Source of the DNA: an uncultured Alphaproteobacteria bacterium
Lineage (GTDB): Bacteria; Pseudomonadota; Alphaproteobacteria; Rhodospirillales; Rhodospirillaceae
Direction: 5' to 3'
Length of the DNA: 54,116 nucleotides
Assembly: GCA_902575965.1 (NCBI GenBank)
Contig: CACGTM010000006.1
Span: forward strand, 1 to 54,116
A program made the position numbers and the translations under genes. A model generated the notes under the pieces. The model was not told the DNA's origin, did not search any database, and saw only the letters and a list, made by a program, of their open reading frames with translations. Positions 37,584-54,116 of this stretch are shown one piece after another (position 1 is the stretch's first letter; each line of letters begins with the position of its first letter).

Positions 37584-39986
37584 TTAGAAGTTATAAGTTG
37601 CCTTCACACCCACCGTTTGCTTGCGTGCTAACGTATAACGAATTTCGTTAGTACATGGAAAACATGTAAACAAATCATTACCAATTACTGCACTTGGAGG
37701 ATCATCCTCATCCAATAAATTCTCAATATAACCTTCAAATGAGAGGTAGTCAGATCTTATACCTAATCTCACATTTACAATATCTGAAGGAGCAGCAAAT
37801 GCAGCATTAGAATAATCAACGAAATATTTTCCCTTATGACTCCAGTCTACACGACCAAACCAGTCATAATCACCAGCAAGAGGATGACTATAATCAGCAG
37901 ATAGTGACCATGTCCACTTTGATGCTGAAGGGAGAAGATTTCCATTACAATCAGGTGATCCACTTACACTTACTCCATCACCACAAAAATACTCCTTTAC
38001 TTCACTATCAGCCATACCAAGAGTACCCGATAATGTAAAATTCTCAAAAGGAACTGCATCAAATTCAAATTCAAAACCCTCTAAATCAATTTTACCTGTG
38101 TTAACAAACACAGATGCAAGATTCAATGAACCGTCAGGATTCAAAAATGGAATTGTTATTTGGTTTTGACCATTAGTGTAAGGGTTGTGATATATAGCTA
38201 GACGAGTCTGGAGCCTTCCTTCTGCCCAAGTATTTTTTAACCCAATTTCATAATTATCAAGTTTTTCTTCATCAAATGCTAAGCCGGCGTTGAATGCTCC
38301 AAACTGAGCTTGAACTGAAGCTGGTGCACCTTGTAATACAGCATTAAAACCACCTGGTCTGTATCCCCTGGCAAACAAGAGATAAGCAGTCGAACCATCT
38401 GCATAGTTATAATCGATGGAAACTCTAGGTGAAAAACTTGTGAATGTTTCATTCAATGCTCCAGCCCCAGGTCCTGTTGGAGGTTGTCCAGTAGAAGTAA
38501 TTTTAACCTGTTGCTTTAATTCATCCCATTGATAACGAGCATCTAAACTTAAAGTTAACGCATCAGTAAGATCATACTGAATACCGCCAAAAACAGCTGG
38601 GGTTTTCGTTCTAAATTCAGTTCGAGCTGAGAAAAAACCTGGACCAAAAGGTGAGAGCCCGTATACAGAACCTCCTGGAGATTTTGTATGTAAATAATTT
38701 CCACCAATAGTCCATCTAAAGGAACTATCCTGAGAAGAAGTAATTCGTAACTCCTGACTTAAATCCTGAAACTTCCCTTGCACAGCTAGCTGCCATCTAT
38801 TGAATAAAGGTGCACCAGGAATAAAGAAACCAAATGGGTTAACAACATTTCTTCTGTCTCTAAAGTTTAAATCAATAACAGACATGTCCTTATCTGAGTG
38901 GTATGCAGTCAATGTTGTAACCGTAATCCCACTTGAAGTTTCATAATCCACTCTGGCGTGTGTATTGATTGCTATTCTTCTTAATCCTGGACCATCTATA
39001 AAAGATGGATCAAATGCTACAGGCAGACCTGCACTGTTTTCTAAAAGGATTTCACGAGCACCGAATTGACTAAGATCATAATTACTCGAAATAATACCGG
39101 GAGCGAGATCCTTCACTCCTGGAAGCTCTCCACAGAAATAACCAAATGCTCTTCCCCCTGGAGTACAATTAAAGTCTCCCGCAGATCCCTTTAAAGAAGC
39201 GTGAGCAGGTGGACCGTCATCATGTTCCATAACATTAAAATAAACTTTTGCAGTAAGACTATCACTAGGGGTGTATTTCGCTAGAAGAGCAAAAGATTTA
39301 GATGTTCTATCACCCAATTTTTCACCTGGCTGTGCAGCGTTTTCATAGTGACCACCCTTTGCATCATAGCTTGCGCTAAGTCTAACGGCTAAAGCATCAG
39401 TAATTGGCCCCTCAACACTCACTTGAGCCAATTGAGTTTGTCTACTTCCTGCAAGTGCAACGACTTTTCCTCCCCACTCTTCATCATTTGGGTCACGTGA
39501 TACATAATTGATAGCTCCCGAAAGAACTGAACGACCAAAGTAAGCACTTTGTGGACCTTTAAGAACTTCTACCCTCTCAAAATCAATAAGTGTTGGAGCT
39601 TGCCCGCCAATAACTGGAGCACCGTCGATAAAAAGTAAACCTCCTGCTGCCTGACCTTGAGCAGCAGTACCCAAGAATAAACCTCTAAACACAAGCGATG
39701 ATCCTGACCTATCTCCTCTACCTGAACCCCCTCCAACTTGTTCCACATAGTGAAAACCAGGAGTATAAGTAGCTATCTCATCCATTTGAGTTAGGTTCAT
39801 TTTCTCAAGTGTTTCAGCTGACATTGCAGTAATTGACATAGGAATTTCCATCAGGCTTTCTTCTCTTTTACGAGCAGTTACCACAATCTCATCTAACGCA
39901 AGTCCATCTGCATATGAATAAGAGATTTCAGCAAATAAAGAAAAAAAGAAAACTCCTAATGCAGAGAAAATTGAGCAATTTTTCAT
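37584..39986 (-). CDS. TonB-dependent outer-membrane receptor
   Basis: 22-stranded beta-barrel importer energised by TonB-ExbBD. The 800 residues have a signal peptide (about 26 residues, to SYADG), a TonB-box-like EIVVTARKREES, a plug domain (MSAETLEKMNL, YTPGF, VLKGPQSAYFGRSVLSGAINYVSR) and a barrel ending KATYNF with the C-terminal Phe typical of barrel proteins. It contains SPRVSIDYNYADGST and FARGYRPGGFNAVLQG, as in the large receptor group of sphingomonads. Several Cys pairs (FTCFPC) lie in predicted loops. The substrate is not inferable. AGGGGG about 7 nt before ATG 39986 is a strong RBS. By eye the gene seems somewhat richer in G+C than its neighbours, which could mean transfer. It stands alone, bounded by the terminator. 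Confidence 0.93.
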   Translation of the reverse strand: MKNCSIFSALGVFFFSLFAEISYSYADGLALDEIVVTARKREESLMEIPMSITAMSAETLEKMNLTQMDEIATYTPGFHYVEQVGGGSGRGDRSGSSLVFRGLFLGTAAQGQAAGGLLFIDGAPVIGGQAPTLIDFERVEVLKGPQSAYFGRSVLSGAINYVSRDPNDEEWGGKVVALAGSRQTQLAQVSVEGPITDALAVRLSASYDAKGGHYENAAQPGEKLGDRTSKSFALLAKYTPSDSLTAKVYFNVMEHDDGPPAHASLKGSAGDFNCTPGGRAFGYFCGELPGVKDLAPGIISSNYDLSQFGAREILLENSAGLPVAFDPSFIDGPGLRRIAINTHARVDYETSSGITVTTLTAYHSDKDMSVIDLNFRDRRNVVNPFGFFIPGAPLFNRWQLAVQGKFQDLSQELRITSSQDSSFRWTIGGNYLHTKSPGGSVYGLSPFGPGFFSARTEFRTKTPAVFGGIQYDLTDALTLSLDARYQWDELKQQVKITSTGQPPTGPGAGALNETFTSFSPRVSIDYNYADGSTAYLLFARGYRPGGFNAVLQGAPASVQAQFGAFNAGLAFDEEKLDNYEIGLKNTWAEGRLQTRLAIYHNPYTNGQNQITIPFLNPDGSLNLASVFVNTGKIDLEGFEFEFDAVPFENFTLSGTLGMADSEVKEYFCGDGVSVSGSPDCNGNLLPSASKWTWSLSADYSHPLAGDYDWFGRVDWSHKGKYFVDYSNAAFAAPSDIVNVRLGIRSDYLSFEGYIENLLDEDDPPSAVIGNDLFTCFPCTNEIRYTLARKQTVGVKATYNF

Positions 39987-40410
39987 TTTGTTATCCCCCT
40001 GGATAAGTTGTTTGTAGTTATTGCAGAATACTTACTGCAAGAAAAAAATACACCTACTTTGAATACAAAAAATTATCTTCAAAAAGTGAATTTTTATTAA
40101 ATATTAAAAAAATTAAAAGGAAACACTTTACTTTAAAGTTGTCCATTTTTGGAAAAAGTAAAAATAAAACCCTCTATTTTTTACATAATAGCCTAGATAA
40201 ACTTTAAAATCTGCAGTTTATCACTAAAAAAACGCTTGAAAAAAACACTAAGTATAATTCCATTAATTATGTTGCATAAATACATCATAAATAGCTAGTG
40301 TAATTATCTCTAATCTTTATTGAAATTAAAATAAATTGCCTAGGAAAACTTATTATTTAATTTGTTCTTCGATTCGCCTTATGAGGCTGTTTTTAGAATA
40401 ATCTCATAAA
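39987..40410. other. ettA-TonB receptor intergenic region, no gene
   Basis: This 424-bp AT-rich stretch carries the upstream region of the (-) TonB receptor and the 3' flank of ettA. No ORF, tRNA or clear terminator for ettA is seen; only a loose inverted repeat TTATGAG/CTCATAA (40379-40409, 17-nt loop) lies just after ettA's stop. The palindrome at 40021-40040 is the one structured element near the receptor start. Confidence 0.6.
40021..40040. promoter_or_regulatory. Operator-like palindrome upstream of TonB receptor
   Basis: TTGCAG and CTGCAA form a perfect 6-bp inverted repeat with an 8-bp centre, 35 bp before the receptor start. Size and spacing suit a dimeric repressor. It does not match a Fur box that I recognise. 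Confidence 0.4.
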
Positions 40411-43791: not shown

Positions 43792-44754
43792 ATGACAAAA
43801 TCTAAATTTTCAATATTTCTTTTTTTTCTCATTTTTATATTAGTTAATGAAAGTTATTCATCTAAATACTCTGGGTTTGATGGTAATTATCCTGTTAAAA
43901 TTATAAATAAAAAAACTATCAAAGTTCAGAATAGACCTGAGCCGTTATCTGTTAGAATCTCAGCCCCAAAATATTTTAGCCTTTCTCCCTTAATTATATT
44001 TTCTCATGGCTCAAGGTGTCATGTAGATGGTTCAAATGATCTTACTGAGTATTGGTCCAGTCATGGATATACTGTTGTACACCCCCTCCATCTAGATGGA
44101 TACCTACCATCAAGAATAAAACAATATTCTAGGGAGCAAATTTCTTTTCATAGATTTAAAGACATGAGCCTTGTATTAGATAAACTTGAATTTTTGTTGT
44201 CAGAAGAAAAAGAAATTTTAAACAAAATAGACTTATCAAAAATAATTGCTGCTGGCCACTCCTATGGTGCTCTTGTAGCGCAAGCTTCAGGTGGTGCTAA
44301 AATATACTCCCAAGGAGAATTTAAGAAAAAAATTTCAAGTTTTGACAAAAGGTTTAAAACAATTATTGCAATTTCGCCTCCTGGGTATATGAAAAACTTT
44401 GTAGACAGTGATTCGGCAAAATCCATAAACCTACCAATGCTTGTAACAACGGGAACTAAAGATATTATCCCTCCCTTTATGCCAACATGGGATATTCACA
44501 CTGTATCATTCCATGATGCTCCTAAAGGTAATAAGTTTCTCGCAGTAATAAATAATGCTGATCATTGGTTTGGAGGTCTTTTGTGTAGAAAAACAGATAA
44601 CGAAGAACAAAATAAGGAAATGAAAACACTAAAAGCAATTACACTAGCATTCCTTGATTTTACTTTATATAAAAATAGTATTGCAGGAAATTTTCTTGAT
44701 CAGCTTTACAAAAAAGAAATTAAAAAAGGGATCTATGATTTTCAAATAAAATAG
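43792..44754 (+). CDS. Exported alpha/beta-hydrolase (PAF-AH/dienelactone-like)
   Basis: 320 residues with an N-terminal signal peptide (IFLFFLIFILVNESYS) and an alpha/beta-hydrolase fold, so probably periplasmic. Visible features: oxyanion region IFSHGSRC, nucleophile Ser in AAGHSYGALVA, acid Asp in TTGTKDIIPP and His in NNADHWFGG. It resembles the predicted dienelactone-hydrolase/PAF-acetylhydrolase-like group. Substrate unknown. It diverges from the TPR gene across 98 bp and converges on the MFS gene with a 4-bp gap, with no terminator between them. Confidence 0.8.
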   Translation: MTKSKFSIFLFFLIFILVNESYSSKYSGFDGNYPVKIINKKTIKVQNRPEPLSVRISAPKYFSLSPLIIFSHGSRCHVDGSNDLTEYWSSHGYTVVHPLHLDGYLPSRIKQYSREQISFHRFKDMSLVLDKLEFLLSEEKEILNKIDLSKIIAAGHSYGALVAQASGGAKIYSQGEFKKKISSFDKRFKTIIAISPPGYMKNFVDSDSAKSINLPMLVTTGTKDIIPPFMPTWDIHTVSFHDAPKGNKFLAVINNADHWFGGLLCRKTDNEEQNKEMKTLKAITLAFLDFTLYKNSIAGNFLDQLYKKEIKKGIYDFQIK

Positions 44755-44758
44755 AACT

Positions 44759-45967
44759 TTAGTACTCATCAGGATATTTTCCCATAAAAATCACGAGAAA
44801 AGCACTGATAATAAAAAATATAGCTGAAAAAATTATAATTAATTCATAGCTTCCAAACATATCAAAACTCTTCCCAAAGATTGCTGGAGCTGAGCCTGCA
44901 CCGATCGCAAAAAAAATAAATTGTTTTCCGTATAAACTTCCATAATTTTTCATACCAAAATAACGACTAGTCATATAAGCTATAAAATCAAGTTCAGCAC
45001 CAGCAGCTAAACCAACAGATAATGCAGCCAAAGTTACTAAAAAAGGACTTGGCATTTCCTGTATTAATACCCAACATGCAATACATGGTAGAATAAAAAA
45101 TATAAAAGCTATGATTGGAGCCCAGACTCTGTCTATAAGGTAACCAACTAAAAGACGACCAACAATAACCATTACTCCAATAAAACCAGCATATGATGCA
45201 GCTTCAGAAGTTCCAAAGCCTTTATCAACTAATAATGGAACGAAATTTGTGATAACACCCGCAACCCCAAAAGATATAAAGAGCATTGAAAAACCTAGTA
45301 ACCAAAATTTGTAACTCAATAATGCATCTTTAGCACTCATACCGTATAGGTTTTGATTTCTTTGGTTATCCTCGTGATCAATTTCTCTTTCAGTAAAAAA
45401 AAAGTAAACTATTGGAAAGCTAAACAGAATAATAACCAAACCAAGAACTAAATAAGCATATCTCCAGCCATATAATGAAATTAATTCTACAGCCAGTATT
45501 GGACCAAATGCAGCCACTATGCCGGTACCAACCATTGTTAAACCTAGAGCTAATCCCTTATTTAAATTAAACCAAGTGTTAACACCACGTGTCCAAGTTA
45601 CCGGAAGGGTTCCTGATGCTAAAACAGACATCACTATCCACAAAAGATAATAATTTATTAATTGACCATTTGTTAGAGAAAGCGAAGCTAATGTTAGACT
45701 TAGAGCAAATAATCCAAATAACGCAATTAACCTCGCTCCAAATTTATCTGAAAGAATACCAATAAATGGACCAGTAATGACAGCACTTATCATCACAAAA
45801 GAAAAAGCAAATTGAGTTTCTCCTCTTGTCCACCCAAACTCAGAGGTAATTGGAATTACAAAAACACCATGAGTATAAAACACAATACCCGTAAGACCAG
45901 ATCCAACACCAACTATTGCACCCAGAAGGGTGCGCCAGCCAACAATAAATTCATTCAAATTTTTCAT
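44759..45967 (-). CDS. MFS transporter (monocarboxylate/oxalate-like), copy 1
   Basis: 402 residues with about 12 predicted membrane helices. MFS loop motif GILSDKFGARLIALFG after TM2, GVNTWFNLNKGLALGLTMVGTG in TM4-TM5, and a central loop with EREIDHED. It shares strong sequence similarity throughout with the transporter at 50153-51400 (WTR at TM4, AGAELD/AGAEFD and SRYFG near the C-half), so the two are paralogues. Substrate is probably an organic anion. It is last in a five-gene (-) operon; AGG lies 7 nt before ATG 45967. Confidence 0.88.
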   Translation of the reverse strand: MKNLNEFIVGWRTLLGAIVGVGSGLTGIVFYTHGVFVIPITSEFGWTRGETQFAFSFVMISAVITGPFIGILSDKFGARLIALFGLFALSLTLASLSLTNGQLINYYLLWIVMSVLASGTLPVTWTRGVNTWFNLNKGLALGLTMVGTGIVAAFGPILAVELISLYGWRYAYLVLGLVIILFSFPIVYFFFTEREIDHEDNQRNQNLYGMSAKDALLSYKFWLLGFSMLFISFGVAGVITNFVPLLVDKGFGTSEAASYAGFIGVMVIVGRLLVGYLIDRVWAPIIAFIFFILPCIACWVLIQEMPSPFLVTLAALSVGLAAGAELDFIAYMTSRYFGMKNYGSLYGKQFIFFAIGAGSAPAIFGKSFDMFGSYELIIIFSAIFFIISAFLVIFMGKYPDEY

Positions 45968-46001
45968 AAATAAACCTAAAAAAAGTTCTTTGGAATATTA
46001 A

Positions 46002-47399
46002 CTAAATATTATTAATTATGCTAGATGCTTTGATACCTGCTAAGCGCCCAAAAGAAGTAGCTGTTAATAAACCATTACCTGCCAAATATCCCCATGAGGA
46101 AGGACCTGAAATACCTCTTGCTGCACCTCCTCCTGCAAATAGGTTAGGAAATAACCTACCATTACTTTTTTTTACTTGACCATTAGAGTCAACAATTAAT
46201 CCACCCTGGGTATGAAATAGAGCTGGGCTAACCTTTACTGCAAAGTAAGGCGGTGTAAGCACAGGTTTACCAGTAAAATCACGACAGAATATATCCTCTT
46301 TGATTCCTAAAGTTAAGTCTTTTACCTCATCAATAGTTCTTTCAAGAGACTTTGGGAGTTTAGTTACCCTAAGAAGGTCTTGAATATTACTTGCCTCTAA
46401 CACACAGTTAGCTTTTAGAGCGTCATGGTAATCATCAAACTCTTTCATAACATCATGACAACGTTTATCATATATACTCCAAGCAAAATTATTTGGCTGG
46501 TTTAAAATTTCTTTTGCTTGTTCAGAGTACCCCTTAGCTTCATTTGAGAATCTTTCACCGTTAGAGTTAACCTGAAAACCACCCTCCATTATATGTGCCC
46601 ATAGAATTGGAACACCATTTCCATAAGCTAAACCTCCATGACCTTGATATGAATGTATATCTCCTATAGCAGCGTTAAGCTCTGTGCCCCACTTAACAGC
46701 ATCACCTTTATTTCCAGGGTGACCAAAGAAATCCGCGTCTACTATTTCAGGAATATATTCTTCTAACATTTTTTTATTCCCACCAAACCCACAACACGCT
46801 AAAATTAAAGACTTACAAGATATGTCTTCAACCCCGCTATCTTTTCTATAAACCCTTGCCCCCTTTACTACGTCATATTCATCAACAAACAAATTAATTA
46901 CGTTTGCCTCAGTAACGACTGGAATGTCCCTCAAGGCAATAGTATCGTGAAGAGCACCCATTAATTCTGATCCTGTACGGTTTGGAGACCCATGCATTCT
47001 TTTGTTTGAATGACCTGGATAATCAAAGGTGCTTACCAATGACAATGGAACATTACAGCTATCAACCAGCCATTCAACAGTCAGAGCAGACTGATTTGCA
47101 AGATGGGCAGCAATTTCTAAATCAGTCTGGCCCTGAGTTTTCATTTTGATATCATCAAAAAAAGCTTCTGGGCTATCTTTAATATTAAGTTCTTTTTGAA
47201 ATCTACTACCTGCACCGGGAATTAACCCAGTTGACATTGATGTTGTTCCAAGTGCAGAGCTATCTTTCTCAAGAACCATGACAGAAGAACCAGTTAGGTC
47301 GACTGATAATGCAGCCGTTAAACCACATCCACCTCCGCCAACAATCAATACATCAATACCAGTATTAAAAGCTGCATCATTTGAACTTAAAATTGTCAT
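46002..47399 (-). CDS. FAD-dependent oxidoreductase (fumarate reductase/KstD-like)
   Basis: 465 residues with an N-terminal FAD-binding Rossmann motif VLIVGGGGCGLTAAL followed by VLEKDSSALGTTSMSTG, the mid segment GHPGNKGDAVKWGTEL, and a C-terminal FHTQGGLIVDSNGQV and LFAGGGAARGISG segment. This is the flavoprotein family that includes fumarate reductase, 3-ketosteroid-delta1-dehydrogenase and related enone reductases. No signal peptide or heme-binding CxxCH is present, so it is probably cytoplasmic. It lies 7 bp after the solute-binding protein gene and 34 bp before MFS copy 1. Direction of catalysis and substrate are not inferable. Confidence 0.85.
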   Translation of the reverse strand: MTILSSNDAAFNTGIDVLIVGGGGCGLTAALSVDLTGSSVMVLEKDSSALGTTSMSTGLIPGAGSRFQKELNIKDSPEAFFDDIKMKTQGQTDLEIAAHLANQSALTVEWLVDSCNVPLSLVSTFDYPGHSNKRMHGSPNRTGSELMGALHDTIALRDIPVVTEANVINLFVDEYDVVKGARVYRKDSGVEDISCKSLILACCGFGGNKKMLEEYIPEIVDADFFGHPGNKGDAVKWGTELNAAIGDIHSYQGHGGLAYGNGVPILWAHIMEGGFQVNSNGERFSNEAKGYSEQAKEILNQPNNFAWSIYDKRCHDVMKEFDDYHDALKANCVLEASNIQDLLRVTKLPKSLERTIDEVKDLTLGIKEDIFCRDFTGKPVLTPPYFAVKVSPALFHTQGGLIVDSNGQVKKSNGRLFPNLFAGGGAARGISGPSSWGYLAGNGLLTATSFGRLAGIKASSIINNI

Positions 47400-47406
47400 A
47401 TATTAT

Positions 47407-48912
47407 CTACTTTTTGAAGTATAATTTGTTATAGTCTATATGACCGACTTCAATATAGTACCCAAGTAGGTCTTTGTTTACAGCATCAAACCTGGATGTT
47501 TCGTACAATAGAATTGCCGGAGCCAATTCTAATTGATACCGCATAACATCCTGAGTAAGCCTTCTCCTTTCCTCAATGTTAAAAGCTGATTGTGCTTTCT
47601 CAATTAATGGCATTATAGACTGATCACAAAACCAAGGCTTTGACCAAAAGCAAGAATGCCTTACAAGGGGGGTAAGTGCATCTAGAGTAGGATTAACTCC
47701 GTAATCTATCCCAATTGCTTCACCCTTCCATTTGCCCTGATAAACACCCCGTGCATATTGTGAGGCTGGAATTCTTGTAATTGATAAATTTACATCAACT
47801 TTTGAAAGGTCTGAAGCAACTTGTTGATATACCTGACTGGAATATGAAGCTGCACTTAGAAGTATTTCAGCAGTAAAAGAAAAACCATTGGGGTAACCAG
47901 CTTCTTTAAGAAGTCCTCTGGCTTTTTTGATGTCATATGGCCACGGTTCAATATTAGGATCCCACCCAAAAGCAAAGCTGGGAGCGGTTTGCGTAGCCAT
48001 GTGAACTTTATTGCTAAGTAATTTGCTAACAATTACTTCTCTGTTAACTGCAAAATTAAGTGCCCTTCTAACTCTAACATCCTTTAATGGTGAGTCCTTT
48101 TCAGTAATAAAAGCCAAAACCTGCATACTTGGATCAAAACCTCGACTAACAAAATGCCCTGAATCTTCAATCATATAAACCTCATCTGGACCAAGTTGCA
48201 CAGCAATATGAAAACGACCTGAGAGAAAACCCTGGATTCTAGAGACAGCATCTGGTGCAGTTACAAGTTCAATATTTTCAACGTTTGACTTCCTCCAAGC
48301 TTGCTTAAATCTTTCAAGAATAACTCGAGAAACATCCCAGGACTTAACCATATATGGACCGGTGCCAATAGGTAAATCAGCAAACCCTTCTTCACCAACT
48401 TCTTTCCAGTAGTTAGGAGGAACAATCTTTAAGGAAGCTATTTTATGAGGTAACAAAATATCTGGCGAAGAAGTTCTTATTCTTATGGTATAATCGTCTA
48501 AGGCTTCAATAGAAGAGATACCATCAAGCTCAGCTGTAACATTCCAAGATCTTCCTTGATCAGACTGAAGTAGATTAAACGAGAATACAACCGAGTTGGA
48601 ATTGAATGGCTCACCATTTGAAAAAGTAACATTTTTTCTAAGAAAAAATAACCATGTCAGTTCATTCTCATACTGCCAACTCTCTGCAAGTAATGGGACT
48701 GGGGTTGCCTGTTGACTAACTCTGGTTAAACCCTCAAACATTGCAGCATGAGTATAAAGACTAGGTAAACCAGTTGTCGTTTTAAATGGGTTTCCTCTGG
48801 AGGTTGGTAAACTAGTAATTCCAACTTTTACAATATCTTTAGAAAGAAGAGGTGTGATTAGATAATTAATAAATAAAATAAGAATTAAAAAATTTTTTAA
48901 TAAGTTAAACAT
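47407..48912 (-). CDS. Family 5 extracellular solute-binding protein (orphan)
   Basis: 501 residues with a signal peptide (FLILILFINYLITPLLS-K) and the SBP_bac_5 fold: MFEGLTRVSQQATPVPLLAESW, FLRKNVTFSNGEPFNS, VKVGITSLP at the mature N-terminus and VRRALNFAVNREVIV with AGYPNGF later. These normally feed peptide/nickel/opine-type ABC importers. No permease (DppB/DppC-like) or ATPase gene lies in the window, so it is an orphan here. There is no lipobox Cys. It sits between the monooxygenase and the flavoprotein with gaps of 9 and 7 bp, so it is part of the same operon. Confidence 0.9.
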   Translation of the reverse strand: MFNLLKNFLILILFINYLITPLLSKDIVKVGITSLPTSRGNPFKTTTGLPSLYTHAAMFEGLTRVSQQATPVPLLAESWQYENELTWLFFLRKNVTFSNGEPFNSNSVVFSFNLLQSDQGRSWNVTAELDGISSIEALDDYTIRIRTSSPDILLPHKIASLKIVPPNYWKEVGEEGFADLPIGTGPYMVKSWDVSRVILERFKQAWRKSNVENIELVTAPDAVSRIQGFLSGRFHIAVQLGPDEVYMIEDSGHFVSRGFDPSMQVLAFITEKDSPLKDVRVRRALNFAVNREVIVSKLLSNKVHMATQTAPSFAFGWDPNIEPWPYDIKKARGLLKEAGYPNGFSFTAEILLSAASYSSQVYQQVASDLSKVDVNLSITRIPASQYARGVYQGKWKGEAIGIDYGVNPTLDALTPLVRHSCFWSKPWFCDQSIMPLIEKAQSAFNIEERRRLTQDVMRYQLELAPAILLYETSRFDAVNKDLLGYYIEVGHIDYNKLYFKK

Positions 48913-48921
48913 ATAACATCT

Positions 48922-50106
48922 TTAAACTTTTACTCTTGGCGCATCATATTCATATAAAATTTTTCCTCTTTGTGCCCTGTCAGAGTCTAAATCCTCTCGT
49001 GAAGAAATCTTTTGGAACAATTGACCAGCTTCCCTTGATTGCAACTGACACCATGCAGTTCTGTCAATTCTCTCATTTTCATAACTTTCAAATATTTTCC
49101 TAGGATTTTCATATTTAACAAAACACCTTGATAGAACAATAGCATCTTCAATTGACATTGCAGCACCTTGAGCCATAAATGGTAACATAGGATGTGCTGC
49201 ATCTCCAAGAATCGTAACTCTATTCTCGCTCCAACTCCCTAGAGGATTTCTATCAAATAAACCCCACTTATAACACTCATCTTGTGGAGTAGCAGAAATA
49301 ATATTTCTTACATCTTGATGCCAGTCTTTAAACTCAGCTAACGCCTGATCAACGGAGGACCTTACTGTCCAGCCCTCTTCATGCCAATCTTTAACATTTG
49401 AAATTGCAACATAGTTTTTAAACCTGCCTGACTTGACCGTATATTCCACAATATGTTTTTTGGGACCAATCCAAATATTTATTTCTGGACCTCGTTGATG
49501 TTCAGGAAGTGATTCTACTGGCATAAGGCCTCTCCAGGCCAAGTTACCAGTATAATTAGGGTTATCCGATGCTTTAATAATTTTCCTTACTAATGAGTGA
49601 ATACCATCACAACCAATCAAAAACTCACCCTCTACAACTAAATTATTATTAAACTTAGCAGTTACAAAGCTCTCTGACTGAAAAAAATCAATCAATTCAT
49701 GGTTAACTTTAATGCAATTCATATCATTACGTTTTACTGAATTGTATAAAGAAGAATGAATATTCACACGATGCACGTCATAATAGGGATGACCATACTT
49801 TTTAGTGAAATCATCACCTAAATCAGTTGTGCTCATCTCTTTGCCAGTTTGATAATGCCTAACTATGGTCTTCTTTGGCAAAGTAGCATCTTTTTCAATT
49901 TCTTTCAGTACACCTAATGAATCGAGAGAACGTGTAGCATTTGGAGTTAACATTACACCTGCACCAACCTCTTTAATCTCTGGTGCTTTTTCAAAAACAA
50001 GTACCTGTTGATTAAGTCTTTGTAATGCCAATGCTAACGAGAGACCTCCTATTCCAGCACCGATGATAATATATTTACACTTATGTGTATTGTTTGTTTT
50101 TTTCAT
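48922..50106 (-). CDS. FAD-dependent monooxygenase, salicylate hydroxylase-like
   Basis: 394-residue class A flavin monooxygenase. N-terminal GAGIGG at residues 16-21 then EKAPEIKEVGAGVMLTPNATRSL, the DG motif GCDGIHSLVRK (about residue 165) and the GD motif VTILGDAAHPMLPFMAQGA (about residue 300). These are the hallmarks of aromatic ring hydroxylases such as salicylate or 3-hydroxybenzoate hydroxylase. Exact substrate unknown. It is second in the operon, 46 bp after MFS copy 2, supporting a role on the imported compound. Confidence 0.9.
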   Translation of the reverse strand: MKKTNNTHKCKYIIIGAGIGGLSLALALQRLNQQVLVFEKAPEIKEVGAGVMLTPNATRSLDSLGVLKEIEKDATLPKKTIVRHYQTGKEMSTTDLGDDFTKKYGHPYYDVHRVNIHSSLYNSVKRNDMNCIKVNHELIDFFQSESFVTAKFNNNLVVEGEFLIGCDGIHSLVRKIIKASDNPNYTGNLAWRGLMPVESLPEHQRGPEINIWIGPKKHIVEYTVKSGRFKNYVAISNVKDWHEEGWTVRSSVDQALAEFKDWHQDVRNIISATPQDECYKWGLFDRNPLGSWSENRVTILGDAAHPMLPFMAQGAAMSIEDAIVLSRCFVKYENPRKIFESYENERIDRTAWCQLQSREAGQLFQKISSREDLDSDRAQRGKILYEYDAPRVKV

Positions 50107-50152
50107 ACTAATAAGCTTTTTAAAAAAATATATTCATTTATAGCGTGTATCT

Positions 50153-51400
50153 CTAATTTGAATATCTATATCTACCTAGAGTCAATAACAACATTGATCC
50201 TCCAATAAGTAATCCAGATGAAAGAAAAAGAATAGGATCATAAGTATTAAAGGTATCTTTGACATACCCAAACAAAGGGGCACCTATCCCAGCACTTATT
50301 TTAAATACAGCATATAAAAAACTATAAATAAGACCATAATTTTTCTGACCAAAATATCTACTCACCAAGAAAGACATAAGATCAAATTCTGCACCAGCTG
50401 CTAAACCAATTAAAACTCCAGCAAACATTGCTGCTCCAACACCACCAAAACCTGTAGCAAGGATTAAACATGAAATGGCAGGTAATGATAATAATACAAG
50501 TGCGACACCCGGGGCCCAAAATCTATCAACCAAATAACCTGTTATTAGACGACCTGCAATAACAGATGGCCCTATGACACCAGCTATTTTTGCACCATCA
50601 ATTAATGAGATATCTCTATCAATGAGCATAAGTACAAAATTAGAAATTAAACCTGCTATGGAAAGCCCTATTATTATGAAAGCTAAATTAATTACCCAAT
50701 AGCGGTAACCATATAGCACCTCACTAACCTTCAACCCTTTTTGTATCAAATTATCTTTGAATTCATTATTGGAACCTTTTTCTACAACATCTTTTCTATC
50801 CACAAGAAAGAAATATGCTAAAGGAAAAGAAATAAAAGCAGGCAAGGCTGCTAAACCAAGATAGGTGAATCTCCAACCAAACTCAGTAATTAACCAAGTG
50901 GCATAAACTGGGAGAAAGGTTGCACTAACTCCTGTCCCGGCAAGAGCTATTCCTAACGCTTTACCTCTCCCAATATTAAACCAATCAACTATTAATCTCG
51001 TCCATGTAATTGGAACGGTACCAACTCCAACTATTGCTGTTAAGAATGCTATTAAGTAAAATGTCCACAGAGGACCAGTAAATAAACCTAAAGAGGCCAT
51101 TCCAATAGCCATTCCAATAATAGAAAATAGTGTGATATTTCTCACACCCCTTTTATCAACCATCCACCCCAAAATTGGTGCCGCAATTAGGTTTCCTAAA
51201 GTAAACCAGGAATAGATTCCCTGAACTTCTGCTTTTGTCCATGAAAACTCTACTGTTAGTTTTGCAGTAATGACACCAGAGGTATATATGGGTATTGCCC
51301 CAAGTCCACAAGCAAGTCCAATTCCAGCTATGAGTACAATTTTCCACCCCCGTTTAAATTCTTCCACAGAAGTGTATTCTGCACCTCTTTTTTCTTCCAT
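50153..51400 (-). CDS. MFS transporter (monocarboxylate/oxalate-like), copy 2
   Basis: 415 residues with about 12 predicted membrane helices and a hydrophilic N-terminus of about 15 residues. MFS motif GWMVDKRGVRNITLFS after TM2, TWTRLIVDWFNIGRGKALGIALAGTG in TM4-TM5, and the central loop VDRKDVVEKG. Paralogous to the transporter at 44759-45967; the two bracket the operon. It is the first gene, reading away from the EthD-like gene across a 172-bp divergent region; GAAGG lies 7 nt before ATG 51400. Confidence 0.88.
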   Translation of the reverse strand: MEEKRGAEYTSVEEFKRGWKIVLIAGIGLACGLGAIPIYTSGVITAKLTVEFSWTKAEVQGIYSWFTLGNLIAAPILGWMVDKRGVRNITLFSIIGMAIGMASLGLFTGPLWTFYLIAFLTAIVGVGTVPITWTRLIVDWFNIGRGKALGIALAGTGVSATFLPVYATWLITEFGWRFTYLGLAALPAFISFPLAYFFLVDRKDVVEKGSNNEFKDNLIQKGLKVSEVLYGYRYWVINLAFIIIGLSIAGLISNFVLMLIDRDISLIDGAKIAGVIGPSVIAGRLITGYLVDRFWAPGVALVLLSLPAISCLILATGFGGVGAAMFAGVLIGLAAGAEFDLMSFLVSRYFGQKNYGLIYSFLYAVFKISAGIGAPLFGYVKDTFNTYDPILFLSSGLLIGGSMLLLTLGRYRYSN

Positions 51401-51517
51401 AAGCTTACCTTCTTGAAATAATTATCCTAATAAAGTGATTGGAAATATTTGTTATTACAGACCAATTATTAAAATTAATGATAATCAAATATATATTTAA
51501 TTTAAGTTAATAAATAC

Positions 51518-51523
51518 TATACT
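51518..51523 (+). promoter_or_regulatory. Candidate -10 for the EthD-like operon
   Basis: TATACT lies 50 bp before the EthD-like start; the -35 region at 17 bp is poor (TTTAAT-like). The 172-bp divergent gap (51401-51572) must hold promoters for both operons but shows no strong palindrome. Confidence 0.3.
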
Positions 51524-51572
51524 CATTAATAAAAAAAACTACCAATATTAAGCCACTCAGAAGGAAAATTTA

Positions 51573-52484
51573 ATGTCTTTATGCGATATTGAGAACAAAG
51601 CTAAAATTTGCAGAATTACCTGCGGCTGGAAAAAACCTGAGCTTCCAATAGACTGGGTTAGGCTCTACTGGCGAGATGTACATAGTCCAGCAATTTCTAG
51701 AAGATTAGGGATTTTTGACTATAGACACTATCAATACGATAACGTTATTGAAAACCTATTATCTCATATTGATGATATAAGCTATTCATGTGATATCAAT
51801 GAACAATTAATGTGGACCTCAGATGTTAGGTATAAGTCTGAACAAGACTTAAGTCTTTTTGACTCTTCTCCAATCGATGAAGCAAAAAAAGCTTTACTGG
51901 GTGATATAGATCTAATTGTTGATAAAAGTACAACTTATAGGGCAGTTAATAGTAATGCTCACACTTTTATAGATATCTCCAAAACTTCTACACCGCAAGG
52001 ATCATATAATCTTCCTACATTTGTCTTATTTTTAAAAAAAAAATCAAAGGAAGAAGAATTCAGAAATTTCTTAAATAGCTTATCTTTGAACCTATCAGGT
52101 CATAATGGAGTGATAAGATTAAGGTTAAGCCTCTTTGATGAACCTGATATGGACAAAGAGAAAAAAGCTGGTTACCCAATTAAAACTCACCCAAAGGAAC
52201 AACAATACCAAGCATCTATAGAGCTTGTCTTAGACAAATTTGAAAGAGGGAAGGAATTATTTACTGATATCAATGAGTCACTAGCAAAAGAGCATATAAA
52301 AGAAATTCACACATATCCTGTGAGAGCAGTGTATACAAGTATTTATGCGTCTAAGCCAACAATTGTGGGGCTAAGGGGGTACCCTGCATATCAAGCAATA
52401 AAGGCACTTAATGCAGACAACCAGAAAAATCCCTTTCTATTAGAATGGATGTATGGAGATATTGCAAAAGAATTTAATGACTAG
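51573..52484 (+). CDS. EthD-like two-domain protein (dimeric alpha-beta barrel)
   Basis: 303 residues, not confidently named. The YWRDVHSPA segment (residues 32-40) with a following tyrosine-rich stretch (FDYRHYQYD) resembles the EthD/DABB-type motif, and the second half (about residues 150-260: TFVLFLKKKSKEEEFRNFL, then RLRLSLFDEP) looks like a second ferredoxin-like unit. EthD proteins accompany several ring- and ether-degrading oxygenases, sometimes as cyclases or accessory subunits. No signal or membrane segment. AGAAGGA eight bases before ATG 51573 is a good RBS. It is followed by the MmgE/PrpD gene after 10 bp. Confidence 0.55.
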   Translation: MSLCDIENKAKICRITCGWKKPELPIDWVRLYWRDVHSPAISRRLGIFDYRHYQYDNVIENLLSHIDDISYSCDINEQLMWTSDVRYKSEQDLSLFDSSPIDEAKKALLGDIDLIVDKSTTYRAVNSNAHTFIDISKTSTPQGSYNLPTFVLFLKKKSKEEEFRNFLNSLSLNLSGHNGVIRLRLSLFDEPDMDKEKKAGYPIKTHPKEQQYQASIELVLDKFERGKELFTDINESLAKEHIKEIHTYPVRAVYTSIYASKPTIVGLRGYPAYQAIKALNADNQKNPFLLEWMYGDIAKEFND

Positions 52485-52494
52485 GGAAAACATT

Positions 52495-53859
52495 ATGATA
52501 GAAACTGTGTCAAATGAACTTACCAACTTTATGTACAAATGGAAAGAAAAGGGAGTCCCTAAAGAAGTTACTCATGAAGCAAAAAGGTTATTTTTAAATC
52601 AACTTAAAGCATCAGTCGGTGCAACGAAAACAGAAGCTATAAAAATTTTAAATGAACAAACAAAGGAAAATGAAAACTTAGAAAAAACATCCCAAATAAT
52701 TTGGCTAGGAAGACAAGCAGATTTAGAGAGTGCAGCAATAGTCAATGGGGCACTATTTGAGGTTTTAGATTTCCATGATACTTATATCCCCTGCTATATG
52801 CATGCTACCTCCGCCGTTCTTCCAGCACTGATGGCTGTTGCAGAGGAAAGAGAATATTCTGGTTTAGATTTTTTAGAATCTTTAGCACTTGGAATGGAAG
52901 TTGAATTAGCCATAGCTTCAATATTAATGCCAACAGCATACTATAGGGGGTATGTTCCTGCCGGCCTAACTGGAAGTGTTGGTGCAGCTGCAGCATGTAG
53001 TATTTTGACGAATATAGGGCCTGAGAAAACACAAAATGCAATTTCCATTGCTATGTGCACCTCATTTGGACTTTATGTTTCAGTTGGGAGCATGACATTG
53101 CCCTATATTACTGGAGCAACAGCTAGGTCTGGACTAAACGCATTTCAACTTGCTGAGAAGGGCTTTGATGGTCCTGCAACTGCTTTTGAAGGCGAAAAAG
53201 GTATGCTAGTTACTCACTCAGACGAAAATAAAGATAAAATCAATAAAGTTCTTTCCTCTATAGGCGATAAATGGAAGATCTTTGGACAAACCTATAAAAC
53301 GGTCCCAACAGAAACAATAACGCATGGGCCAATAGAATTAATCTTAAAGGTTTTAGATCGATCAGGTGGAAAAGAGATTAAAAAAATTGATTTTTTTGTC
53401 TGTCCAATCGTTAAAGAAATATGTGATGAACGGATGGAGCGCTTTGGCTTGCCAAGTAGTGAACTAACTGCAAGGTTTGATTTATGCTTTTGTGCAGCCG
53501 CGGCATGGGTTCGTGGAAAATTTACTTTAGAAGAAATGAAAGAAGAAGCATACAAGGATGATAAAATATTAGATTTAAGAAACAAAATTAATTTGATACC
53601 AGATCAAAGCAGAAAAACCTTTGAAGGATGCTCCATTAAAGTAGAATACTTGGATGGGAGTAAGGACAGTGATAATGTTGATTATTTTTTAGGAAGTCCA
53701 CAAAATCAAATGACTGATAATCAACTCTCAAATTTATTTTTACAATCTTCTAAAGGGTTTATAAATGAAAAAAAAGTAAATATTATTCTACAAGATTTAT
53801 GGGGTCTTGAAGAGGAACAAAATATTAAAAAATTTATTAGTCAATTAAAATTGAATTAG
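52495..53859 (+). CDS. MmgE/PrpD family protein
   Basis: About 454 residues of the MmgE/PrpD fold, which includes 2-methylcitrate dehydratase, cis-aconitate decarboxylase and iminodisuccinate epimerase. Visible: ALFEVLDFHDTYIPCYMHATSAVLPALMA (substrate pocket His and Asp), EVELAIASILMP, GLTGSVGAAAA, AISIAMCTSFGL and TITHGPIELILKV. ATG 52495 is preferred because AGGG lies eight bases upstream at the end of the EthD gene; upstream ATGs at 52453 and 52477 overlap that gene. Substrate unknown, but dehydration or isomerisation of a tricarboxylate-like or cyclic acid fits the locus. Confidence 0.88.
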   Translation: MIETVSNELTNFMYKWKEKGVPKEVTHEAKRLFLNQLKASVGATKTEAIKILNEQTKENENLEKTSQIIWLGRQADLESAAIVNGALFEVLDFHDTYIPCYMHATSAVLPALMAVAEEREYSGLDFLESLALGMEVELAIASILMPTAYYRGYVPAGLTGSVGAAAACSILTNIGPEKTQNAISIAMCTSFGLYVSVGSMTLPYITGATARSGLNAFQLAEKGFDGPATAFEGEKGMLVTHSDENKDKINKVLSSIGDKWKIFGQTYKTVPTETITHGPIELILKVLDRSGGKEIKKIDFFVCPIVKEICDERMERFGLPSSELTARFDLCFCAAAAWVRGKFTLEEMKEEAYKDDKILDLRNKINLIPDQSRKTFEGCSIKVEYLDGSKDSDNVDYFLGSPQNQMTDNQLSNLFLQSSKGFINEKKVNIILQDLWGLEEEQNIKKFISQLKLN

Positions 53860-53868
53860 AAGAAAAAT

Positions 53869-54116
53869 ATGACATTACTTAAGATCAACAAAGATGAAAT
53901 CTTTTGGTACAAAATTAGTGGGGAGGGAGAGCCCTTAGTTCATATACATGGGTCGGCATTTGGGCATAAAAACTTTGAAAAGATGACACCATATATGTTG
54001 AATAAGTTTCAGGTCATTGATTTTGATCTTATAGGATATGGAGATAGTAAAGGTAAAAACCGTCAAGGGGGAATTGAGGGAATCGCAGATCAAGTAAGTG
54101 ACTTTATAAAGGCGCT
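53869..54116 (+). CDS. Alpha/beta-hydrolase, 3'-truncated by window end
   Basis: This frame starts with ATG 9 bp after the MmgE/PrpD stop (AGAAG six bases upstream) and stays open to the window end, about 82 residues visible. It shows GEGEPLVHIHGSAFGHKNF (the oxyanion HG motif) and FQVIDFDLIGYGDS, the N-terminal half of the fold seen in meta-cleavage hydrolases and lactonases. The nucleophile elbow lies beyond the window. It is likely co-transcribed with the EthD and MmgE/PrpD genes. Confidence 0.8.
   Translation, partial: MTLLKINKDEIFWYKISGEGEPLVHIHGSAFGHKNFEKMTPYMLNKFQVIDFDLIGYGDSKGKNRQGGIEGIADQVSDFIKA

Follow-up and report, generated by a model that had tools for sequence, protein, structure and literature searches.

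Among the described relatives of the proteins treated here, the EthD double-barrel protein Hsh3 was purified and proven to be a 7beta-hydroxysteroid dehydratase (PMC12175502). Further points of comparison are the monooxygenase group of 3-hydroxybenzoate 6-monooxygenase (3HB6H), NicC and vanillate 1-hydroxylase, the MmgE/PrpD superfamily with cis-aconitate decarboxylase (ACOD) and 2-methylcitrate dehydratase, the 3-oxoadipate enol-lactonase PcaD and the flavocytochrome c fumarate reductases. A published description of a cluster combining EthD, MmgE/PrpD and monooxygenase genes was not found in the open-licence literature. In the present study such a locus was analysed at the end of contig CACGTM010000006.1, the whole of which (54,116 bases, hereafter the window) belongs to an alphaproteobacterial metagenome-assembled genome (MAG) of 1.37 Mb and 58% completeness. 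On balance we take the locus to serve the breakdown of a carboxylic acid that is cyclic and probably aromatic or derived from an aromatic compound. A group-A FAD monooxygenase (FMO) would hydroxylate this acid, and the product would pass to a conserved trio of an EthD-like protein, an MmgE/PrpD enzyme and an alpha/beta-hydrolase (module A), with a second group of genes (module B) associated. Gene content, conservation, module structure, folds, catalytic residues and co-occurrence were observed, and from these we infer the substrate class, the order of steps and every reaction.

The catabolic reading is preferred because the trio keeps its order across bacterial classes, the FMO tracks the trio, and aromatic-acid-type MFS transporters and MhpR/PcaR-type IclR regulators are found as neighbours. 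It is further favoured because the catalytic triad of the hydrolase is invariant, active-site residues of the PrpD enzyme are kept, Hsh3 offers a precedent for the EthD-like protein, the genes are under purifying selection, and module B is both conserved and separable. The features concerned are the following:

43792 to 44754, plus strand: chlorophyllase-like alpha/beta-hydrolase, partner of module B, convergent with MFS transporter 1 (Pfam Chlorophyllase, 3.3e-9; same-genus orthologue 78%)
44759 to 45967, minus strand: MFS transporter 1 (MFS1) of the monocarboxylate/oxalate-formate-antiporter type, module B (Pfam MFS_1, 1.6e-37)
46002 to 47399, minus strand: FAD_binding_2 flavoenzyme of the flavocytochrome-c/TcuA/KstD superfamily without haem domain, module B (Pfam, 2.5e-49)
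47407 to 48912, minus strand: family-5 extracellular solute-binding protein, module B (Pfam SBP_bac_5, 5.5e-65)
48922 to 50106, minus strand: FMO of the 3HB6H/NicC/vanillate-1-hydroxylase superfamily, partner of module A (Pfam FAD_binding_3)
50153 to 51400, minus strand: MFS transporter 2 (MFS2; Pfam MFS_1, 4.9e-36)
51401 to 51572, no strand: divergent intergenic region of 172 bp, with a block near-unchanged in the sister genome
51573 to 52484, plus strand: EthD-like protein with two fused dimeric-alpha/beta-barrel domains, first core gene of module A
52495 to 53859, plus strand: MmgE/PrpD-superfamily enzyme, second core gene of module A (Pfam, 2e-49 and 9.4e-21)
53869 to 54116, plus strand: PcaD-like alpha/beta-hydrolase, third core gene of module A (82 residues before the contig end)

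Five open reading frames on the minus strand and three on the plus strand make up the locus, all of them intact except for the alpha/beta-hydrolase, which is cut where contig and window end. Successive genes are 34, 7, 9 and 46 bp apart on the minus strand, and gaps of 10 and 9 bp separate those on the plus strand; frames and gaps together bear out the two tightly spaced divergent operons, with their coordinates, which an earlier note on this DNA had described. The frame of the MmgE/PrpD enzyme was listed from 52453, the start at 52495 being favoured by homologues and spacing. The gene families named in that note were recovered as well: Pfam backs every assignment at the locus except that of the EthD-like protein, for which sub-threshold matches of relatives and the fold agree with the name. 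Gene order is identical in a genome of the same genus (g1), G001 (contig L014), with proteins 78-93% identical and ratios of nonsynonymous to synonymous divergence (dN/dS) of 0.06-0.10 for the operon genes; owing to the shared order and these ratios, which indicate purifying selection, the arrangement is not ascribed to chance. The same locus supplied the extension past position 54116 that the earlier note had suggested, as it continues with the full alpha/beta-hydrolase of 269 residues and then an aromatic-acid-type MFS. MFS1 and MFS2 are 36-38% identical and cross-match each other there. Within the divergent region a block at about 51487-51530 is almost unchanged between window and sister genome, against a synonymous divergence of 0.63-1.06 in the genes, and this near invariance suggests a shared regulatory site; a consensus promoter scan of the 172 bp gave matches at chance level.

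Module A was surveyed with the EthD-like protein as probe, which was detected in 8 of 61 close genomes; in the order as a whole 11 of 317 genomes carry it, and these belong to one family. In a collection of 84,980 species 22 loci were found (L051 and L020, both counted, are one and the same contig), carried by marine Rhodospirillaceae, Gammaproteobacteria, Sphingomonas, Betaproteobacteria and Chloroflexi, and every locus with enough contig presents the order EthD-like protein, MmgE/PrpD enzyme, alpha/beta-hydrolase. Among 385 genomes drawn at random from the class and 398 from the phylum there was one carrier each, both times the window's own genome, and since no further carriers appeared module A is rare overall. 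The plasmid collection held only EthD-like relatives of about 27% identity (Nostoc, Gloeothece, Roseomonas), with no PrpD annotated alongside; on the Nostoc and Gloeothece plasmids (L093, L094) these relatives (26-27% identity) lie near small genes of the carboxymuconolactone-decarboxylase family.

An FMO of the cassette clade stands near the trio in 12 of the 22 loci, including most of the alpha- and gammaproteobacterial ones, so that the conserved co-occurrence which had been proposed as a check was indeed found, for the trio throughout and for the FMO in most loci of these two classes. Other recurring neighbours are aromatic-acid-type MFS transporters, two further alpha/beta-hydrolases, an NmrA protein and an IclR regulator of the MhpR/PcaR type, whereas sphingomonad trios are instead accompanied by a TonB receptor, an amidase, a coenzyme A (CoA) transferase and an acyl-CoA dehydrogenase. 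Because these peripheral partners differ among lineages, the trio is the constant core around which the periphery varies, and it would act on a shared intermediate. In a betaproteobacterial MAG a DAPG_hydrolase gene, encoding a C-C hydrolase of the PhlG type, was observed shortly downstream of the trio (L045:5730-6614), a hint toward acylphloroglucinol-like substrates.

The FMO itself scores above 548 bits against the cassette profile in each of the family's 11 trio genomes and in one of its 62 other genomes (G216), and its paralogues reach at most 462 bits, which leaves a clear gap below the orthologues. As G216 has the window-type FMO adjoining an MFS2-like gene without the trio, the pair of FMO and MFS2 can stand alone. 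The cassette FMOs form one clade with support of 99/98 against plasmid and PDB relatives, in a tree with few outgroups and with the PDB entries on long branches; among solved structures the FMO stands nearest to vanillate 1-hydroxylase, tropone 2-monooxygenase, 4-hydroxybenzoate decarboxylase and NicC. Five or six FMOs of the superfamily were counted in each of the genomes G002, G005, G018, G024, G246, G247 and G249, which suggests a broad repertoire for ring hydroxylation in the family. The window's own genome (G000) possesses a second operon with FMO and MmgE/PrpD genes on contig C26 (L137:3435-13441), another catabolic-looking cluster, together with a CoA-transferase III, an isochorismatase-like hydrolase, two methyltransferases, a 4HBT thioesterase and a gene of the phosphoenolpyruvate-mutase/isocitrate-lyase family.

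The possibility that the locus belongs to a known route, either from 3-hydroxybenzoate to gentisate or of nicotinate by way of NicC, joined to a lower pathway of unusual kind, was considered because the best NCBIfam model of the FMO is 3-hydroxybenzoate 6-monooxygenase (PRK08163), NicC structures match, and the FMO of a NicC-type Azospirillum cluster is 36% identical. However, the PRK08163 score of 294.5 bits lies below the cut-off of 459, gentisate dioxygenase was detected in none of the 11 trio genomes, nine of which are at least 95% complete, and a search without positive control for the 2,5-dihydroxypyridine dioxygenase NicX likewise gave no match in these 11; in addition, the position of NicC His47 is occupied by Met in cassette FMOs, and the hydrolase is 20% identical to that in the NicD position of the Azospirillum cluster. 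We therefore hold a known route to be improbable, and the 3-hydroxybenzoate/gentisate pathway proper was ruled out on the missed cut-off and the lack of gentisate 1,2-dioxygenase. With curated cut-offs missed and no named pathway matched, the failure of the earlier note to recognise a published pathway in this gene set was borne out for the open-licence literature searched.

Other ring-cleavage enzymes are scarce in the same 11 genomes, with an intradiol dioxygenase in one (G005), LigB in two (G007, G025) and a dioxygenase of the catechol-2,3 type in none, and none of the tested ring-cleavage dioxygenases occurs in the scanned neighbourhoods. As the classical ring-cleaving dioxygenases are thus missing from most of these genomes, unusual chemistry may be at work. 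MHPCO directly opens a pyridine ring, and one could imagine an aerobic degradation independent of dioxygenases, in which the FMO would dearomatise or open the ring and the trio would process the product hydrolytically. Such a scheme would suit the ipso-hydroxylating or dearomatising enzymes among the relatives of the FMO (vanillate 1-hydroxylase, TropB, SorC) and the PhlG-type hydrolase next to the trio in L045, but homogentisate, 3-hydroxyanthranilate and other cupin dioxygenases as well as epoxidase routes via CoA esters lie outside the families surveyed, the NicX result carries the limit given above, and the substrate need not be aromatic. We consider it rather doubtful, and slightly more so the specific proposal that an undescribed aerobic pathway, free of ring-cleavage dioxygenases and built around the trio, opens and breaks down a cyclic acid, with the EthD-like protein as isomerase or dehydratase between flavin hydroxylation and hydrolysis.

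Polyketide clusters also contain FMO, EthD and alpha/beta-hydrolase genes, EthD and FMO genes being common in the fungal ones according to the literature, and the EthD-like protein has an anthrone-oxidase-like fold match, so that a biosynthetic or detoxifying cluster, engaged in tailoring or inactivating secondary metabolites, had to be weighed. Yet no polyketide synthase, nonribosomal peptide synthetase or other scaffold-building gene was present in the neighbourhoods scanned with Pfam, which instead show importer-type MFS, solute-binding proteins, IclR regulators, CoA ligases and CoA-transferases, and this explanation is very improbable.

Within the trio, the EthD-like protein ranges from 81 to 49% identity across 21 loci. 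The window protein has no Pfam match, the gathering threshold of EthD (PF07110) being unmet; sub-threshold EthD matches were obtained for four of 21 relatives (best E 0.028), a distant cyanobacterial relative is annotated as EthD, and a profile search of PDB sequences gave no match even at E 10. An AlphaFold (AF2) model predicts a two-domain alpha/beta barrel (pLDDT 90.9, pTM 0.90), and the Foldseek matches of this model, with TM scores of about 0.35-0.5, are double dimeric-alpha/beta-barrel proteins, namely sulfur oxygenase reductase, the anthrone-oxidase-like structure 5f9p, bacterial chalcone isomerase and chlorite dismutase. Judged by this model, with two ferredoxin-like domains arranged as a barrel, and by the matches at TM 0.4-0.5, the protein belongs to the EthD/dimeric alpha-beta barrel superfamily. 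A profile of 21 cassette PrpD sequences matched ACOD and iminodisuccinate (IDS) epimerase best. The active-site residues of ACOD are Asp93, Thr97, His103, His159, Lys207 and His277. The cassette enzymes keep the aligned positions Asp93, Thr97, His103, Lys272 and His277, the corresponding residues of PrpD being Asp93, Thr97, His104, Lys269 and His278, as would suit a catalytically competent enzyme, and those of His159 and Lys207 are replaced, mostly by aliphatic residues (Val and Leu in the window protein); five positions kept and these two lost argue for an active enzyme with a predicted substrate other than that of ACOD. The window's part of the alpha/beta-hydrolase is 85% identical over the common part to the complete orthologue of 269 residues (L014/L031), and the triad Ser94/Asp215/His249 is invariant in 17 of 17 sequences, the window copy ending before Ser94.

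By its conservation the locus consists of two separate modules that were joined in genus g1. Many members of the family have an orthologue of the flavoenzyme (60-69%), adjoined in other genera by that of MFS1 (52-63%), whose best NCBIfam model, SfMCT, stays below cut-off. In genera g2 and g5 module B runs from the solute-binding protein through the flavoenzyme to MFS1, and in g2 there follow a GFO/IDH/MocA oxidoreductase, in most cases an SDR, and a chlorophyllase-like hydrolase, with a tannase/feruloyl-esterase gene further on. This hydrolase is orthologous to that at 43792-44754 in the window (cluster c4) and adjoins module B in the loci of six relatives; because of this recurrence the window gene, which lies just outside the range initially noted, is assigned to module B. 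The solute-binding protein bears an N-terminal hydrophobic, signal-like segment, and no ABC permease or ATPase, such as would accompany ABC-type peptide/nickel uptake, was found beside it between 40411 and 54116. In the same window a stretch at 38001-40000 has a GC content of 0.40, its surroundings about 0.33-0.35.

The earlier note raised the possibility that the eight genes together serve a single pathway for a single organic acid. In its favour, the two modules share a divergent promoter region with tight spacing in g1, stand some 3 kb from each other in G002, and occur together in eight genomes (11 with A, 10 with B; Fisher p 5e-7, a value that ignores shared ancestry), although this co-occurrence falls largely within a few related genera. 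Against a single pathway, the modules lie apart in most relatives with long enough contigs, G002 and g1 being the exceptions, module B is found without A in G248 and G250, and A without B in G007, G018 and G025. What stands of the claim is a catabolic type of gene content with plausible uptake, hydroxylation and hydrolysis; action of all eight genes on one compound is unlikely, module B being separable. A functional link between the modules is plausible, and since B is joined to A in this genus they probably act on related substrates. The degrees of confidence given to the catabolic, the dioxygenase-free and the one-pathway readings overlap.

In the catabolic reading, the cyclic carboxylic acid would be brought in by MFS symport and hydroxylated by the FMO with NAD(P)H and O2, whereupon the EthD-like barrel protein might isomerise or dehydrate the hydroxylated or opened product. 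The PrpD enzyme would contribute further dehydration, isomerisation or decarboxylation, and the Ser-Asp-His hydrolase would cleave a lactone, an ester or an activated C-C bond. Module B, with solute-binding protein, flavoenzyme, MFS1 and chlorophyllase-like hydrolase, could provide a second uptake together with an ester-hydrolysis or redox function. Several points weigh against this reading: the PrpD, alpha/beta-hydrolase, MFS and FMO families are large and functionally promiscuous, so that their names do not fix reactions; the genome of the window is incomplete, as stated above; G248 and G250 have module B although no trio was detected in them; and no cassette-type FMO lies within the scanned sequence at the sphingomonad, Chloroflexi and betaproteobacterial loci, for which reason the step of the FMO may belong to the periphery.

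Bacteria of the sea and of sponges break down a large, uncharacterised fraction of dissolved organic matter, and a trio that is conserved in Alpha-, Gamma- and Betaproteobacteria as well as in Chloroflexi, and that has cultured carriers such as Sphingomonas sp. AR_OL41 and S. immobilis CA1-15, offers a concrete handle on one new pathway of this kind. Ring opening without dioxygenases, if true, would join a short list of exceptions among aerobic routes. Neither a Pfam model nor a solved structure was found for the EthD-like family, nor any function assigned to it.

Compared with the known systems, the flavoenzyme resembles flavocytochrome c fumarate reductase, urocanate reductase, TcuA and KstD in its full-length FAD_binding_2 fold. 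It differs from flavocytochrome c in lacking the haem domain, and it stays below the cut-off of TIGR01813 (233.7 against 285.45 bits). In an alignment with fumarate reductase 1d4c, which covers the catalytic Arg402 and the carboxylate-binding residues, Tyr stands in place of Arg402 and Leu/Trp in place of Thr377/Glu378, and Arg544 is lost. The identity as flavocytochrome c fumarate reductase was thereby ruled out, so that the likeness to fumarate reductase named in the earlier note does not denote that enzyme, and loss of the acid and carboxylate-binding positions makes a dicarboxylate reductase role unlikely. The cassette FMOs agree with the group of 3HB6H, NicC and vanillate 1-hydroxylase in the group-A FAD_binding_3 architecture, a full-length match and the GD and AHP motifs, and are set apart by their separate clade and a score under the 3HB6H cut-off. 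The cassette PrpD has the two-domain fold of the MmgE/PrpD superfamily in common with ACOD, iminodisuccinate epimerase and 2-methylcitrate dehydratase; the first of these identities was rejected on the replaced His159 and Lys207, the last on 47.1 bits against a cut-off of 950 (NF042438). PcaD is the best NCBIfam match of the L014 hydrolase (110.6 bits, cut-off 255.85) and shares its alpha/beta-hydrolase fold and catalytic triad, but the setting is unlike that of PcaD, with no intradiol ring-cleavage partner of the beta-ketoadipate type in 10 of 11 trio genomes, and together with the missed cut-off this ruled out the beta-ketoadipate pathway. The EthD-like protein, finally, is like Hsh3 (PMC12175502) in its double dimeric-alpha/beta-barrel architecture, and by this analogy Hsh3 may serve as a precedent for lyase or dehydratase chemistry on a double barrel.

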